Assembly: GCA_040757115.1 (NCBI GenBank)
Contig: JBFLYA010000125.1
Coordinates: 1 to 5,258 of the forward strand
Direction of reading: 5' to 3'
Length of the DNA stretch: 5,258 bases
Source of the DNA: a bacterium
Lineage (GTDB): Bacteria; UBA9089; CG2-30-40-21; SBAY01
The position numbers were made by a program, and so were the translations under genes. Shown here one piece after another: positions 1 to 5,258 of the stretch (within the stretch, counting starts at the first letter, position 1; each line of letters opens with the position of its first letter). The notes beneath the pieces were generated by a model that made no database searches, had not been told where the DNA came from, and saw nothing but the letters and a program-made list of their open reading frames with translations.

Positions 1-191
1 GGGGATAAGGAGATAAGAGTGATATGGAGATAAGATAATAGAAATAGATTGAAATTTATAGAAATAGGTAGAAATTGATTGGGGAAAACAACAAATTTCC
101 ATAAATTTCTATTAATTTCAATTTTTTTAATAATATCTCTCTATCTCCTTAATCTCCACATCTCCTTTTGTTACACCACCTGAACGCTTAC
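1..191. mobile_element. Palindromic GA-rich MITE-like repeat, copy 1 (left end outside window)
   Basis: This copy matches 2154-2340 in the same orientation. A 61-base block (21-81 against 2174-2234) is identical, and the rest differs mainly by two indels: about 11 extra bases in copy 2 (near TAGTTTCTACT) and 15 extra in copy 1. The left half is purine-rich (GGAGATA units) and the right half pyrimidine-rich (TATCTCC), so the two halves can fold on each other. It ends in ACCTGAACGCTTAC (178-191), the same end as copy 2. No ORF of its own is visible, so it would be non-autonomous. Positions 127-191 are also coding: they supply the stop codon and last 21 codons of dxs. The left terminus, which should lie about 36 bases further out by comparison with copy 2, is not in the window. 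Confidence 0.85.
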
Positions 192-2028
192 AAAATTTCT
201 TAATAGATTGAGTAATTCCCTCAACATCTAACCCATACTTTTTAAAAAGTATTTCACTTGCTCCGTGTTCGATAAATTGGTCTGGAAATCCCAGACATTT
301 AACCCTGACATCCTGAATTTGATTTGCATTCAATAACTCCAGAATAGCACTTCCAAATCCACCACTAACAATATGGTCTTCGATGGTGATGATTTTTTTA
401 GTTTTGAGATTTAAAATCAGAGTTTTATCTAATGGTTTAACAAATCGGGCATTGACGACGCCGATGTTTTTTAAGTTTTTCGCCACCTCTAAAGCGGGAT
501 AGACCATTTTCCCCAGAGCAAGAATAACTGCTTCATTACCTTCGACTAAAACTTCGGCTTCACCAATTTTAAAAGGGGTTTGTTTTTCTTCAATTTTAAG
601 TGGGCAACCTCTTGGGTAACGAATAGCACAAGGTTGATTACTTGAGATAGCCAGATTCAGCATCATTACAAGTTCTGTTGTGTCTTTTGGGGACATAATA
701 ACCAGATTGGGAATATGTCGTAAATAAGCGATGTCAAACAAACCTTGATGAGTCGGTCCATCTTCACCAACTACTCCTGCCCGATCAATACAAAATACCA
801 CAGGTAAATTCATCAGACAGACATCATGCAAAATCTGGTCATAAGCTCGTTGTAAGAATGTAGAATAAATTGCACAAACAGGTTTAAGTCCCATTGAAGC
901 CATTCCTGCGGCAAATGTCACGGCATGCTCTTCGGCAATACCTACATCAAAGAACCTTTCCGGATGACTTTCTTTAAAATATTTTAATCCTGTGCCTTCA
1001 GCCATAGCCGCCGTAATTGCTACAATCTTTGAATCATTTTTCGCTAAATCAGTTAAAGTTTTTCCCATCACTGCTGAGAATGATAATTTCTCATTCTCCA
1101 ATGGTTTGCCAGTGGCAATGTCAAAAGGGCTTGTTCCATGAAACCACTCAGGATTTTTCTCTGCCGGCTCATAGCCTTTACCTTTTTTCGTAAAAATATG
1201 TAAAAGCCGGGGACCTTTTAAGTCTTTAATCTTTCCTAAAACATTAATTAATAAATCCAGGTTATGTCCGTCAATGGGACCAAAATATCTAAATCCTAAT
1301 TCTTCAAATAATGCCCCATGAATTAATATATTTTTTATCCCCTCTTCTACTTTTTTAACTAATGTGCTCATTGGTGTGCCAATTCTGGGGACTTTAGTAA
1401 TTAACTCTTGAATATCTTCTCGCAATCGAGAATAAATAGGCATCGTTATAAGTCTATTCAAATAACCGGCAAGTGCACCAATCGTCCTTGAGATAGACAT
1501 TTCGTTACTGTTTAAAATAACCAGCAAATCTTTTTGAAGTTGGCCGGCATGATTTAATGACTCAAAAGCCATTCCACCAGATAATGCCCCATCACCAATA
1601 ACCACGACTATTTTCTTTGACCCATCACCTTCAAATTCTTTCGCTATTGCCAAACCTAATCCGGCGGAGATAGAAGTGCTGGCATGACCGGTATTAAAGA
1701 CATCATAATACGATTCTTCTCGCTTGGGGAAACCTGATATTCCACCATATTGTCGTAATGTCTGAAATTGTGATTTTCTACCTGTAAGTAATTTATGGGC
1801 ATAACATTGATGACCAACATCCCAGATAATTTTATCAACAGGGGTATTGTAAATATAATGAAGGGCAATAGTTAATTCTACCACTCCCAGATTAGAGGAC
1901 AGGTGTCCACCTGTGTTTGAAACGGTTTTGATTATCTCTTGCCTTATTTCATCTGCAATCTTTTTTAATTGGCTAATATTTAGTTTTTTAAGTTCTGCTG
2001 GAGAAGAAATCTCTTCAAGTAACTCCAT
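127..2028 (-). CDS. dxs: 1-deoxy-D-xylulose-5-phosphate synthase
   Basis: This thiamine-diphosphate enzyme joins pyruvate and glyceraldehyde 3-phosphate, with loss of CO2, to make DXP, the first step of the MEP isoprenoid pathway, which also feeds thiamine and pyridoxal synthesis; it is cytosolic. From the chosen start (633 aa) the family motifs appear in order: TGGHLSSNLG (about 39-48), WDVGHQ (69-74), the ThDP/Mg motif GDGALSGG (145-152) with ILNSNEMSIS (171-180), the catalytic Glu in IAEEHAV (Glu366), DRAGVVGEDGPTHQG in the pyrimidine-binding domain (415-429), IRYPRG, and a transketolase C-terminal domain to about 610. An in-frame ATG at 2056-2058 would add ten residues, but a promoter -10 box lies inside that extension and MELLEEISSPAELKKL is a typical DXS N-terminus. 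No start has a strong ribosome binding site. Residues 613-633 are encoded by the neighbouring mobile repeat and are not DXS-like. No operon partner is visible. Confidence 0.97.
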   Translation of the reverse strand: MELLEEISSPAELKKLNISQLKKIADEIRQEIIKTVSNTGGHLSSNLGVVELTIALHYIYNTPVDKIIWDVGHQCYAHKLLTGRKSQFQTLRQYGGISGFPKREESYYDVFNTGHASTSISAGLGLAIAKEFEGDGSKKIVVVIGDGALSGGMAFESLNHAGQLQKDLLVILNSNEMSISRTIGALAGYLNRLITMPIYSRLREDIQELITKVPRIGTPMSTLVKKVEEGIKNILIHGALFEELGFRYFGPIDGHNLDLLINVLGKIKDLKGPRLLHIFTKKGKGYEPAEKNPEWFHGTSPFDIATGKPLENEKLSFSAVMGKTLTDLAKNDSKIVAITAAMAEGTGLKYFKESHPERFFDVGIAEEHAVTFAAGMASMGLKPVCAIYSTFLQRAYDQILHDVCLMNLPVVFCIDRAGVVGEDGPTHQGLFDIAYLRHIPNLVIMSPKDTTELVMMLNLAISSNQPCAIRYPRGCPLKIEEKQTPFKIGEAEVLVEGNEAVILALGKMVYPALEVAKNLKNIGVVNARFVKPLDKTLILNLKTKKIITIEDHIVSGGFGSAILELLNANQIQDVRVKCLGFPDQFIEHGASEILFKKYGLDVEGITQSIKKFCKRSGGVTKGDVEIKEIERYY

Positions 2029-2046
2029 TGTTCCCATCTTAATTTT

Positions 2047-2075
2047 ATTATACACCATTTAATTAAAATTTGCAA
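2047..2075 (-). promoter_or_regulatory. Sigma-70-type promoter of dxs
   Basis: Read on the minus strand, TTGCAA (2070-2075) and a perfect TATAAT (2047-2052) are 17 bases apart, with an A/T-rich tract just upstream that could act as an UP element. Transcription would begin near 2040. That leaves a leader of about a dozen bases before the ATG at 2026-2028 and rules out the ATG at 2056-2058 on this transcript. The -35 box matches four of six consensus bases. Confidence 0.65.
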
Positions 2076-2117: not shown

Positions 2118-2340
2118 GTAACCGTTCAGGTTATACATTAAAAGTGTAAGAAGGGGGATAAGGAGATAAGGAAGATATGGAGATAAGATAATAGAAATAG
2201 ATTGAAATTTATAGAAATAGGTAGAAATTGATTGTGGGAAACAACAAATTTCCATAAATTTCTATTAGTTTCTACTAATTTCAATTTTTTTTAATAATAT
2301 CCCTCCTTATCTCCTTTTCTTACACCACCTGAACGCTTAC
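2118..2340. mobile_element. Palindromic GA-rich MITE-like element, copy 2 (complete)
   Basis: The ends are inverted repeats: GTAACCGTTCAGGT (2118-2131) and ACCTGAACGCTTAC (2327-2340) match at 13 of 14 positions. Inside them follow GTGTAAG (2144-2150) and its complement CTTACAC (2319-2325), then a GGGGATAAGGAGATAAG arm mirrored by a TATCTCC arm, so almost the whole 223 bp is an imperfect palindrome. No transposase is encoded. The GTAAGCG-type end recalls IS66-family termini, which is a family resemblance only. No 8-bp duplication flanks this copy (AGAGTTTG on the left, AAATTTCT on the right). The inverted similarity continues about 11 or more bases outward on both sides, so the true boundary may lie further out. 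Confidence 0.8.
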
Positions 2341-2485: not shown

Positions 2486-2569
2486 ATGAAGAAGGAGACT
2501 AAAAAGAAGATGAATCCCTATCCCTATGGTCATCATAAATTCAGCAGGAAAATAAAAAAAGAAAGGTAA
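2486..2569 (+). CDS. Small basic protein or leader peptide, 27 aa, unrecognised
   Basis: I do not recognise this peptide. It opens with an ATG after AAGGGAGGG (2475-2483), a purine-rich ribosome binding site whose core sits only 2-4 bases from the start, which is tight. The peptide has 27 residues, nine Lys and two Arg, beginning MKKETKKKM, with a central NPYPYGHHKF and a basic tail. There is no hydrophobic stretch, so it is neither a signal peptide nor a membrane peptide. A good promoter precedes it by about 20 bases, and an intrinsic terminator stem begins in its stop codon, so promoter, ORF and terminator form one unit of about 140 transcribed bases. It could be a small nucleic-acid-binding protein, a leader peptide for the gene at 2881, or a chance ORF inside a small RNA. 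Confidence is moderate because nothing but context supports translation. Confidence 0.5.
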   Translation: MKKETKKKMNPYPYGHHKFSRKIKKER

Positions 2570-2611: not shown

Positions 2612-2846
2612 TTAAATCCGTTAAATCGGTGGTGTCTGAAAATAACGCTAATAGTGAAATCTATGCAGATTTGGTGTCCAAAAGGGGATAAGGAGATAAA
2701 GGGAGATATGGAGATTATTCATTGTCCTTTCCAAAATTTTAGAATGAATTTATCTCCTTATCTCCATAATCCCCATATCTCCTTTTCTTACACTATTTCA
2801 ACCTTTATGCTAGATTAAGACACCACCGTTAAATCCGCTAAATCTG
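2612..2846. repeat. 9-bp tandem repeat TTAAATCCG, split by the third element
   Basis: TTAAATCCG (2612-2620) and TTAAATC (2621-2627) lie left of the inserted element; TTAAATCCG (2829-2837) and CTAAATCTG (2838-2846) lie right of it. Removing the element and one 8-bp duplicate restores three adjacent 9-base units ending just before the TATAAT at 2852. The site could bind a regulator of the downstream gene or be simple sequence; nothing here decides which. Confidence 0.5.
2628..2827. mobile_element. 200-bp MITE with perfect TIRs and 8-bp target duplication
   Basis: The ends GGTGGTGTCT (2628-2637) and AGACACCACC (2818-2827) are perfect inverted repeats. They are flanked directly by GTTAAATC on both sides (2620-2627 and 2828-2835), an 8-bp direct duplication typical of DDE transposition. 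The interior holds GGGGATAAGGAGATAA (2684-2699), a near-perfect inner stem (GGAGATTATTCATT at 2710-2723 against 2743-2757) and CTCCTTTTCTTACAC (2779-2793). These resemble the arms of the repeats at 1-191 and 2118-2340, although its termini differ from theirs. No transposase is encoded; a 70-codon open frame crossing it has no protein-like features. One caveat is that the flanks sit in a 9-bp tandem repeat, which could mimic part of the duplication. Confidence 0.8.
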
Positions 2847-2880: not shown

Positions 2881-5258
2881 ATGGCTACTAATAATGTTGT
2901 GTTAGACCCCAAACTATTACTTACCACTCATCAACCTAAAAAGGAAGATGAGCCTGTTGACTCAACATTCGGTAATATGGTCCGACTTGGATTGTTGCGT
3001 GAGGCAATGAAGAAAAAAGTAGGTGATATAGGCTGGGAAGATACTACAAAACCTATCCCTAACACCGGCTACAAAAATTTCGATTTGAATAATGATGGCA
3101 AAATAAGTATCTCAGACTTGAAGATACATTCCCCACAAATTAGTGCTCAACTAAATAAAATTGAACAGGGATTTGGTAAGAAGGAAGGTGATATTGAAGG
3201 ATATAAAGAGGTTGATTTTAACCAGGATAATAAGATAGACCAGGAAGATATATTTACCCTGTGGGCTAATAATAACCTTTCTAATTTAAACCTTCTCAAA
3301 GAAGCCTTTGGTAAAACCTCAAATGACCCCGGTTGGGAAGACAAACAAGAGCTCGTCAAATTAGGCTACAAAAATGCCGATGTAAATCTGGATGAGGAAG
3401 TAAATGACCTTGATAAAGCGCTGATATTTTCTGCCATTTATCCTGATGGCACATTAGTTAGAAGCGAAGTGGATAATAGATTTATGATTATTTCAGGAAC
3501 TAAAAAACGCATTCCAAATGAAAAAACATTCGATAACTTAGGATTAGATAAATCTCAAATTATCACACTTGCAGATGAGGAATTAGAACTTATCCCGGAT
3601 GGTGAAGAAATCCCTCTCATAAAATACGATAATGGCACATTATTAAAAGCAGATAATGATTATTACCTGATGGCATATGGCTTAAGAAGAAAAATACCGG
3701 ATGAACCAACATTAAAAAACTTAGACCTTGACGAATCCAGGGCAATTCCGGTATCTACATCAGAATTAGAAAACATTCCAGAAGGAAATGAAGTCCCACA
3801 CTTCGAATATCCAATCGGTAGTATACTCAAAAACTCTGAAACTAATGATGAGCAATACTACATGATAACACCAGCAGGTGAGAAAAAACTTATCCCTGAT
3901 ACCAGAACCTTACAGAATTTAGACCTTGATATTTCAAAAGTCAAACAAGTCCCACTGGCAAAATTACAAGACATCCCGGATGATGCAGAATCTTTCCCGC
4001 ACTTAGAATATCCCAATGGCACTATTCTTAAATCAGGCGATAAATATTACTACACCACGATGGACAAAAAGATTGAAGTACCAGATGAGATGACACTGAA
4101 GGCGTATGGTTTAGATGTCAAGCCTTATACCATCTCAGTCAAGGCAAAAGGCACTCAATCTGGCGGTTCATTCCCATTAATCCAATTGCGTGTTGACGGT
4201 CAGGTAGTAAAAGAATGGTTTGTAACGGATGAATACAAAGACTACACTGCTACTGTGCCATTATCTTCAGGCAACCATAAAATAGATGTTGTCTATCCTA
4301 ATGACCAGGATATATATTCATGGTTAGAGACCTGGGTAGATACAGATAGGCATCCTACACATACAGATTATGAGTATTACTCTCAAATATTACATCAAGT
4401 CACCGCAGATAGGACTTTATGGATTGACCATATCAAAATTGATGATAAAATTATCGAATCAGAGGATTACACCCGGGTAAAATACGATAGGGGGTTAAAC
4501 CAGAAACCAGATAGTACTGTTGATGATAGTAATGTAGTCCCTGGTCAGGAATTGATGAACTACGCCGGGGCATTAAGATTTAATGTAGATATTGATCCGA
4601 TAATCAATGTATCAAAAGAAAATTTAGACAAACTTGAGACTGTAATGACATTTGAGCAAGTCAAATATCCAAATGGGACTGTAATAAGAAACCAAGAAGG
4701 TGATAAGATTTATCTGATGCAAAATGGAGCAAAGCAAGAGATAAAAAATGATGAGACCCTTGAGGCATTAGGGATTGAAAAAGACACCCCTATCCCACTA
4801 AATACCTTTAATTTTAAAGAATTAAACACAGGTAAAAGGATATATGATTTAATACCAGTAAGTGGACAATGGAGTTTGAAGGATGGAGTCTATCAGCAAG
4901 AGAATATGACGGCTCTTATCTCTATAGCCAAATTAAAAGAAACTTACTCAGATTTCATTCTTAAAACAAGGATAAAGGCAACTCAGACAACCTATGCGAC
5001 TGATTGTCGCTACATTAATTTTAGGGCCAAAGATGAACAGAATCAATATGTATTACAGATATTTGGCACCCATCTTAATTTATATAGAGTAGTAAATGGG
5101 AATTGGACCTGTCTTGCTGAAGTATCAAGGGATTTACCTCTTGGCACCTGGGCTGATTATAAAATAGTAGCTAATGGTGACCAAATTCAGGTCTATGAAA
5201 ATGATAGATTGATTGCCGATATCAAAGATAACTCGAACACATCAGGCAGTATATACCT
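2881..5258 (+). CDS. Modular protein: dockerin-like EF-hands, YPxGT repeats, CBM60-like and LamG/DUF1080-like domains (3' partial)
   Basis: The frame is open for 792 codons to the window edge. Domains in order: an N-terminus without signal peptide or membrane segment; three dockerin/EF-hand-like repeats (about 37-180) with Asp/Asn calcium loops at 68-79, 112-123 and a weaker one at 167-178, the first and third preceded by GWED; YPxGT repeats of 56-67 residues at 187-248, 249-309, 310-376, a split one, and 596-651; a CBM60-like, calcium-dependent xylan-binding type module (about 416-526: agGSFP...VDG, NHKIDVVYPND, DRTLWIDHIKI) inside the fourth repeat; and a jelly-roll domain of the LamG/DUF1080 (3-keto-disaccharide hydrolase) type from about 656 (W..kDGvYqq, FRAKDEQNQYVLQ, GTWADYKIV). 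No catalytic centre is visible, so the family suggests polysaccharide or glycan binding. Export is expected for such domains but no signal shows it. The C-terminus, and any anchor there, lies outside. Confidence 0.9.
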   Translation, partial: MATNNVVLDPKLLLTTHQPKKEDEPVDSTFGNMVRLGLLREAMKKKVGDIGWEDTTKPIPNTGYKNFDLNNDGKISISDLKIHSPQISAQLNKIEQGFGKKEGDIEGYKEVDFNQDNKIDQEDIFTLWANNNLSNLNLLKEAFGKTSNDPGWEDKQELVKLGYKNADVNLDEEVNDLDKALIFSAIYPDGTLVRSEVDNRFMIISGTKKRIPNEKTFDNLGLDKSQIITLADEELELIPDGEEIPLIKYDNGTLLKADNDYYLMAYGLRRKIPDEPTLKNLDLDESRAIPVSTSELENIPEGNEVPHFEYPIGSILKNSETNDEQYYMITPAGEKKLIPDTRTLQNLDLDISKVKQVPLAKLQDIPDDAESFPHLEYPNGTILKSGDKYYYTTMDKKIEVPDEMTLKAYGLDVKPYTISVKAKGTQSGGSFPLIQLRVDGQVVKEWFVTDEYKDYTATVPLSSGNHKIDVVYPNDQDIYSWLETWVDTDRHPTHTDYEYYSQILHQVTADRTLWIDHIKIDDKIIESEDYTRVKYDRGLNQKPDSTVDDSNVVPGQELMNYAGALRFNVDIDPIINVSKENLDKLETVMTFEQVKYPNGTVIRNQEGDKIYLMQNGAKQEIKNDETLEALGIEKDTPIPLNTFNFKELNTGKRIYDLIPVSGQWSLKDGVYQQENMTALISIAKLKETYSDFILKTRIKATQTTYATDCRYINFRAKDEQNQYVLQIFGTHLNLYRVVNGNWTCLAEVSRDLPLGTWADYKIVANGDQIQVYENDRLIADIKDNSNTSGSIY
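3082..3417 (+). other. Three dockerin-like calcium-binding loops
   Basis: Within the modular protein, loop 1 (DLNNDGKISISD, residues 68-79) fits the DxNxDGxIxxxD pattern fully. Loop 2 (DFNQDNKIDQED, 112-123) lacks only the Gly. Loop 3 (DVNLDEEVNDLD, 167-178) keeps Asp/Asn at 1, 3, 5 and 12 but is more degenerate. Classical type I dockerins have two such loops about 30 residues apart; here there are three, 44 and 55 residues apart. They may bind calcium structurally rather than dock to a cohesin. Confidence 0.75.
3439..4833 (+). repeat. Five YPxGT protein repeats, the fourth split by an insertion
   Basis: Each unit runs Y-x-x-G-[TS]-[LIV]-[LIV] ... Y/F-M-I ... K-[KR]-x-I-P-[ND]-x-x-T-[FL]-x-x-L-[GD]-[LI] ... 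I-x-x-[VL]-x-x-x-E-L ... I-P-x-G. Units: residues 187-248, 249-309, 310-376, 377-414 plus 568-595, and 596-651. Similar units with this pattern (a value, 'GKKRxIPN', 'LG') occur in surface proteins of many uncultivated bacteria, from memory; I know no assigned function. Repetition is at protein level; the DNA copies have diverged, so the array is old. Confidence 0.8.
4123..4581 (+). other. CBM60-like domain nested inside the fourth YPxGT repeat
   Basis: Residues 415-567 interrupt a repeat. The fourth unit stops after its GLDVK (410-414) and its second half, IINVSKENL...EQVKYPNG, resumes at about 574. The insert begins with a beta-rich module (YTISVKAKGTQSGG, LRVDGQVVKEWFV, NHKIDVVYPND, DRTLWIDHIKIDD) resembling the calcium-dependent xylan-binding module family. 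It continues with about 40 residues of linker (TRVKYDRG to YAGALRF). The family call rests on pattern memory and is moderate. Confidence 0.65.

Follow-up and report, generated by a model that had tools for sequence, protein, structure and literature searches.

A MITE with IS66-type termini encodes the C-terminal tail and the stop codon of a bacterial DXS

We found that the gene for 1-deoxy-D-xylulose-5-phosphate synthase (dxs), an enzyme of isoprenoid synthesis, ends in an uncultured bacterium inside a mobile element, from which the last residues of the protein and the stop codon are read. The element bears clear marks of mobility, it is missing from the end of dxs in the relatives that we compared, and its end also closes two other genes of the same genome and one gene of a sister species. 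In the explanation that we favour, and consider likely, an IS66-type MITE inserted at GAAATTTT, in the codon that preceded the dxs stop, and now encodes the tail and the stop.

Results

The last codons of dxs belong to a repeat

The window analysed here opens contig C125 and covers 5,258 of its 10,998 bases; the contig belongs to a 4.3-Mb genome assembled in 462 contigs (G000). Its dxs gene (positions 127-2058, reverse strand) encodes 643 residues and is a full-length dxs equivalog: it matches TIGR00204 with an E-value of 6.8e-255 and 847 bits (cut-off 466), from residue 15 to residue 622 of the protein and from position 2 to position 614 of the 616 of the model. The Pfam domains DXP_synthase_N, Transket_pyr and Transketolase_C all end at or before residue 622. 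The nearest named DXS record, from a metagenome-assembled genome labelled Nitrospira sp. Bin_21_1, is 77% identical.

The C-terminus reads SIKKF-CKRSGGVTKGDVEIKEIERYY, and residues 623-643 lie outside the matches to TIGR00204 and to the Pfam domains. These 21 codons (130-192, reverse strand) derive from the element in all bases but one: the element ends at position 191, and dxs contributes a single base of codon 623. The open reading frame and the alignment to the consensus of the element place the TAA stop codon (127-129, reverse strand) within the element as well. The first-pass annotation of this DNA had proposed that a repeat gives DXS its last 21 residues and its stop, and that DXS proper ends near SIKKF; the coordinates and the end of the family model at residue 622 bear out both proposals. 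In the predicted structure, the last DXS helix spans residues 612-624 and the tail lies beyond it; the tail is predicted to be disordered, with a pLDDT of about 25-33 in a mediocre model (mean 65, built from 10 sequences).

Two other regions of the window lie apart from dxs. A small basic ORF (MKKETKKKMNPYPYGHHKFSRKIKKER; 2486-2569, forward strand) is preceded, by eye, by TTGACA, TATAAT-like and GGAGG-like sites that an automatic scan did not flag, and is followed by a GCCTTCT...AGAAGGC hairpin with a run of T; no copy of it was found in the other fetched loci. Positions 2881-5256 (forward strand) encode the first part of a large protein that has repeated segments as well as domains of the dockerin type I, CBM60 and 3-keto-disaccharide-hydrolase-like kinds.

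The repeat is a MITE present in more than 100 copies

The copy that ends dxs occupies positions 1-191 (forward strand) and lacks its left ~36 bp, the contig starting at base 1. Its terminal inverted repeat GTAAGCGTTCAGGT (178-191, reverse strand) is a GTAA terminus of IS66 type, as judged by comparison of end patterns and by the IS66 termini in PMC11946415. Relative to the 237-bp consensus, this copy shows a single 10-bp gap, in its non-coding part, and one difference in the 65 translated bases. A complete second copy of 223 bp lies upstream of dxs (2118-2340, forward strand). Bases 1-128 match 2154-2281 at 92% identity, and bases 134-190 are found again as a block at 2283-2339. The first-pass annotation was thus right about a repeat at 1-191 with a second copy, but the latter starts at 2118 and not at 2154. 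It had also taken 15 extra bases in the first copy as a sign of in-frame tolerance; these bases are normal in the consensus and were deleted from the second copy, which makes the argument moot. A third, diverged relative (GGGGATAAGGAGATAAAG...CTCCTTTTCTTAC; 2684-2793, forward strand; repeat families D2 and D3, inverted pairs I8, I13 and I18) has different outer ends. In the surrounding region (2627-2828), this diverged GGGGATAAGGAGATAA repeat copy is enclosed by a further inverted repeat, GGTGGTGTC...GACACCACC, which is perhaps a different element family.

The complete element has the termini GTAACCGTTCAGG and GTAAGCGTTCAGG (GTAAGCG/GTAACCG), measures 237 bp, is near-palindromic and carries no long ORF or gene. 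It folds as a single long hairpin (-87.9 kcal/mol, z -11). The genome-wide search suggested by the first-pass annotation gave 119 forward and 121 reverse matches to the element-end pattern in the 4.3 Mb (240 ends in all, against none in a reversed control, well above chance expectation), i.e., more than 100 copies. We then took from fetched stretches of this genome a sample of 46 complete copies at distinct sites. Most of them (34 of 46) have a length of 237 bp, and 23 do not differ from one another at any base. Exact 8-bp target duplications, no two alike, flank 24 of the 46, and two more copies have duplications with one mismatch; at most one mismatch was seen in 3% of the cases in a control with shuffled flanks. 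The target sites are A+T-rich (79% across the 8 bases). The element is a MITE: it is short, has no transposase gene, and has terminal inverted repeats, many near-identical copies and target duplications. The identical copies are the product of a recent burst. The earlier description of a small palindromic mobile element therefore stands as regards mobility and hairpin, and is corrected to an IS66-type MITE. An Rfam scan of the window gave no match, nor did a search of a plasmid collection with the element. Many contigs of the genome start or end about 95-210 bases inside the element, which is probably a main cause of the assembly being in 462 pieces.

The most complete copy of an IS66-family transposase found in the genome (contig C277; PF03050, E-value 1.9e-39) has GTAACCGTTCAGGT at both ends. 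In this only near-complete copy found, two in-frame stops interrupt the ORF, and no target duplication flanks the copy. In Frankia, the termini of IS66 elements are of the GTAAGCG type and the repeats are 8 bp long (PMC11946415); ISDge4, a member of the ISBst12 group within the IS66 family, has the terminus GTAACTGCTCAGCA and an 8-bp repeat (PMC12898284). The MITE resembles them in its GTAA-type termini, which are close to GTAACCGTTCAGG, and in its 8-bp direct repeats, but ISDge4 and other IS66 elements encode a transposase, whereas the element described here spans 237 bp without a gene. Since its termini are common to the C277 copy and agree with the published GTAA-type termini and 8-bp repeats, we class it, from these sequence features, as an IS66-type MITE, and we infer that an IS66 transposase may have moved it.

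Relatives end dxs without the tail

We compared the 3' end of dxs with that of one genome of the same genus (G001) and two of the same family (G002 and G003). The gene of G001 is 98% identical at the DNA level and ends AAG AAA TTT TTG TAA (SIKKFL*), with no tail; the homopolymer at the junction has five Ts in G001 vs four in the window. The proteins end SVEKF* in G002 and SVKEFK* in G003, and the 21-residue tail is absent from all other DXS sequences compared. This alignment of C-termini, another check suggested by the first-pass annotation, supports its claim that a captured element replaced the original stop, as the relatives compared have neither the element nor the tail.

G001 carries another element just downstream of dxs, a few bases from its stop (locus L032, dxs strand); this element is 171 bp long, with GTAAC.../...GTTAC ends and a perfect 8-bp duplication, GATTATTC. 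The presence of this perfectly duplicated element suggests that the same 3' end was hit independently in G001. In three other genomes of the phylum, the C-termini of DXS (G008, L036; G011, L037; G013, L038) continue into repeat-looking sequence, e.g., ...VAVHGLKLEIGN from GAAATTAGAAATTGGAAATTAG and ...PPFAIRHP from CCATTCGCCATTCGCCATCC. The appearance of these ends suggests that capture at dxs may have occurred repeatedly.

Element ends close other genes

The right end of the element can be entered in three frames, which give an immediate stop (the TAA of GTAA), a stop after 6 codons, or a tail of 20-21 residues. Searched with the 20-residue tail, G000 yielded about 140 places that encode it, nearly all of them after a short open frame only. 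Three long frames end in the tail: dxs (643 residues), a DUF374 acyltransferase-like gene (254 residues, C92) and the apolipoprotein N-acyltransferase gene lnt (502 residues, C142). In G001, one of 90 such places ends a long frame, of 812 residues, whose product combines an O-antigen-ligase-like part (recognised by eye and by weak similarity to IctB) with a TPR part. The G001 orthologs of the DUF374 gene and of lnt lack the tail and end ...ADEFW* and ...FPYKEER*, respectively; both stops are the TAA of the GTAA-type terminus of another element. Relative to G001, lnt of G000 has lost about 18 native residues.

A wider scan for ORFs of at least 120 codons used 351 kb of fetched stretches, which overlap and were deliberately chosen around the element. 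Eighteen ORFs run into a GTAA[C/G][C/T][A/G][T/C]TCA terminus, in one case a motif inside the IS66 transposase itself. Of the remaining 17, nine terminate immediately, on the TAA of GTAA, and eight are lengthened by 7-30 residues. Most are recognisable, including RecO, ABC-3 permease, DegT aminotransferase, ATP-grasp, Germane, metallo-beta-lactamase, DUF2085 and others. A preference for the frame with the immediate stop was considered and is not significant (9/17, P = 0.075). The ends of the 237-bp element itself are mostly intergenic: 11 frames with at least 80 open codons lead into 142 ends. We did not count as genes L108 and other short ORFs leading into the element, which have no Pfam match or are too short. 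RecO of G000 (L012:1762-2559, forward strand) ends GNRSGSPLPQRRRGTEKIWK, from another repeat with GTAACCGTTCAGG ends (the CCGCAGAGACGCAGAG type).

A probable insertion into the last codon of dxs

The favoured explanation is that the non-autonomous 237-bp MITE, which makes 8-bp target duplications, entered the last codon of dxs before the stop, presumably at the target GAAATTTT. This would be the dxs sequence at 192-199 (reverse strand), a predicted target site on the basis of the 8-bp duplications at 24 of the 46 complete copies; its second copy is expected off the contig. The old ending TTT-TTG-TAA (SIKKFL*) would have become TTT-T|GT-AAG..., now read as TTT TGT AAG CGT TCA onward, and translation would continue for 20 codons into the right end of the element and halt at its TAA. 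Such an insertion, just past the last DXS helix, would be a tolerable change, and selection against gene disruption would leave surviving copies between genes and at 3' ends. The target duplication of this particular copy is out of sight because the contig start cuts the copy. On its far side, direct insertion predicts GAAATTTT followed by TGTAACTA / TGTAACTATTT. A pattern search of G000 for that junction gave no exact match and no convincing near match, the near ones being other insertions; the G001 gene downstream of dxs, used as a probe in G000, found no ortholog and only matches of less than 80 bases.

Judging from the junction sequences, the tail depends on the element starting after four Ts; after five, its GTAA would end the protein at SIKKFL. 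The same reading of the tail would follow if the element inserted after five Ts and one base then slipped, or if a base was lost to sequencing error. Thus, the element might have landed after the five Ts still present in G001, its GTAA replacing the native stop, with a later slip of one T exposing the tail. Direct stops on GTAA are common, both in the scan (9 of 17 ORFs) and in the G001 orthologs of the DUF374 gene and lnt, but this history needs two events where one suffices, and the DUF374 gene and lnt of G000 were captured directly in the tail frame without a homopolymer. We regard it as unlikely; it would leave the tail element-derived, and it predicts AAATTTTT and then GTAACTA on the far side.

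Less probable still is an artefact of assembly or sequencing, in which the end of dxs was joined to the repeat at the tip of a contig or one T is missing. The junction is indeed 191 bases from the start of the contig, in an assembly where many contigs end inside the element. Yet it coincides precisely with the terminal repeat, just as the junctions of dozens of complete copies inside contigs do, and the element adjoins two other genes in the same frame. This copy differs from the consensus by a private variant in the translated part and by the 10-bp gap, so it is not a collapsed consensus.

That the tail was selected as a shared C-terminal tag or regulatory signal seems very improbable to us. 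Nearly the same 20 residues end three unrelated proteins of G000 and one of G001, but the sequence is set by the element, and in about 130 further copies the frame comes after short open stretches only. Furthermore, the tail is predicted to be disordered, albeit in a mediocre model, and no frame is significantly over-represented (the P of 0.075 concerns immediate stops). The simplest reading is a tolerated accident, the tail presumably being neutral.

Finally, we reject the possibility, raised with the first-pass annotation, that the second copy is a duplicated 3' end of dxs: about nine bases past the terminus (AAATTTCTT) are common to both copies, a short shared stretch that is unremarkable given the A+T-rich targets (79%), but the similarity otherwise halts at the terminal inverted repeat, and more than 100 copies lack dxs sequence, with dozens of complete ones at unrelated sites, many flanked by exact 8-bp duplications.

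Discussion

Tails and stops derived from MITEs are already known, and dxs is a new example. Rickettsia palindromic elements insert in frame inside ORFs, where they sit, whereas here the ORF ends inside the element. Small palindromic repeats inside protein-coding genes were described for them by Ogata (2000), in the account given of that work in PMC10969869. Among the closest parallels are QMITE1 and QMITE2 of Coxiella burnetii, which give chromosomal genes stops or short C-terminal tails: 12 residues in pntAA, 16 in nagZ, 8 in mutT, a stop only in ubiB, and 33 in EnhC in one strain (PMC5896051). They are like the element described here in furnishing stops and tails, but are different elements in a different host; the present case adds IS66-type termini, one tail frame on three unrelated genes, and sites without it in a close relative. 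In enterobacteria, RU-1 took the place of a stop, and an amidase now continues at its C-terminus past the conserved domain (PMC2759123). RU-1/ERIC-type repeats thus also lengthen a protein by replacing its stop, but RU-1 measures 127 bp and belongs to another sequence family, with no IS66-type terminus described (PMC2759123). The literature searched, with most subscription journals outside its coverage, held no description of the 237-bp element or of IS66-type MITEs acting in this way. What distinguishes the case is the precise element-free site in a sister species, the burst of identical copies and the several unrelated genes with the same tail.

The case shows cleanly how mobile DNA can give rise to new protein C-termini; many identical copies of the donor element remain in the genome. 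The dxs gene is normally essential, and lnt is essential in many Gram-negative bacteria. Since donor copies are at hand, the sister site is free of the element and the captures involve unrelated genes, two of them normally essential, the cost of such tails can be tested. More speculatively, and with rather low confidence, the termini of IS66-type MITEs might be a genome-wide source of gene ends in this genus, offering a ready stop in one frame and a short tail in the others. A considerable fraction of proteins, among them essential ones, would then end in mobile sequence, and different MITEs would take each other's place at a given 3' end from one sister species to another. For the annotation of this group, near-identical C-terminal 20-mers on unrelated proteins are to be read as MITE sequence, not as a domain or a sorting tag.
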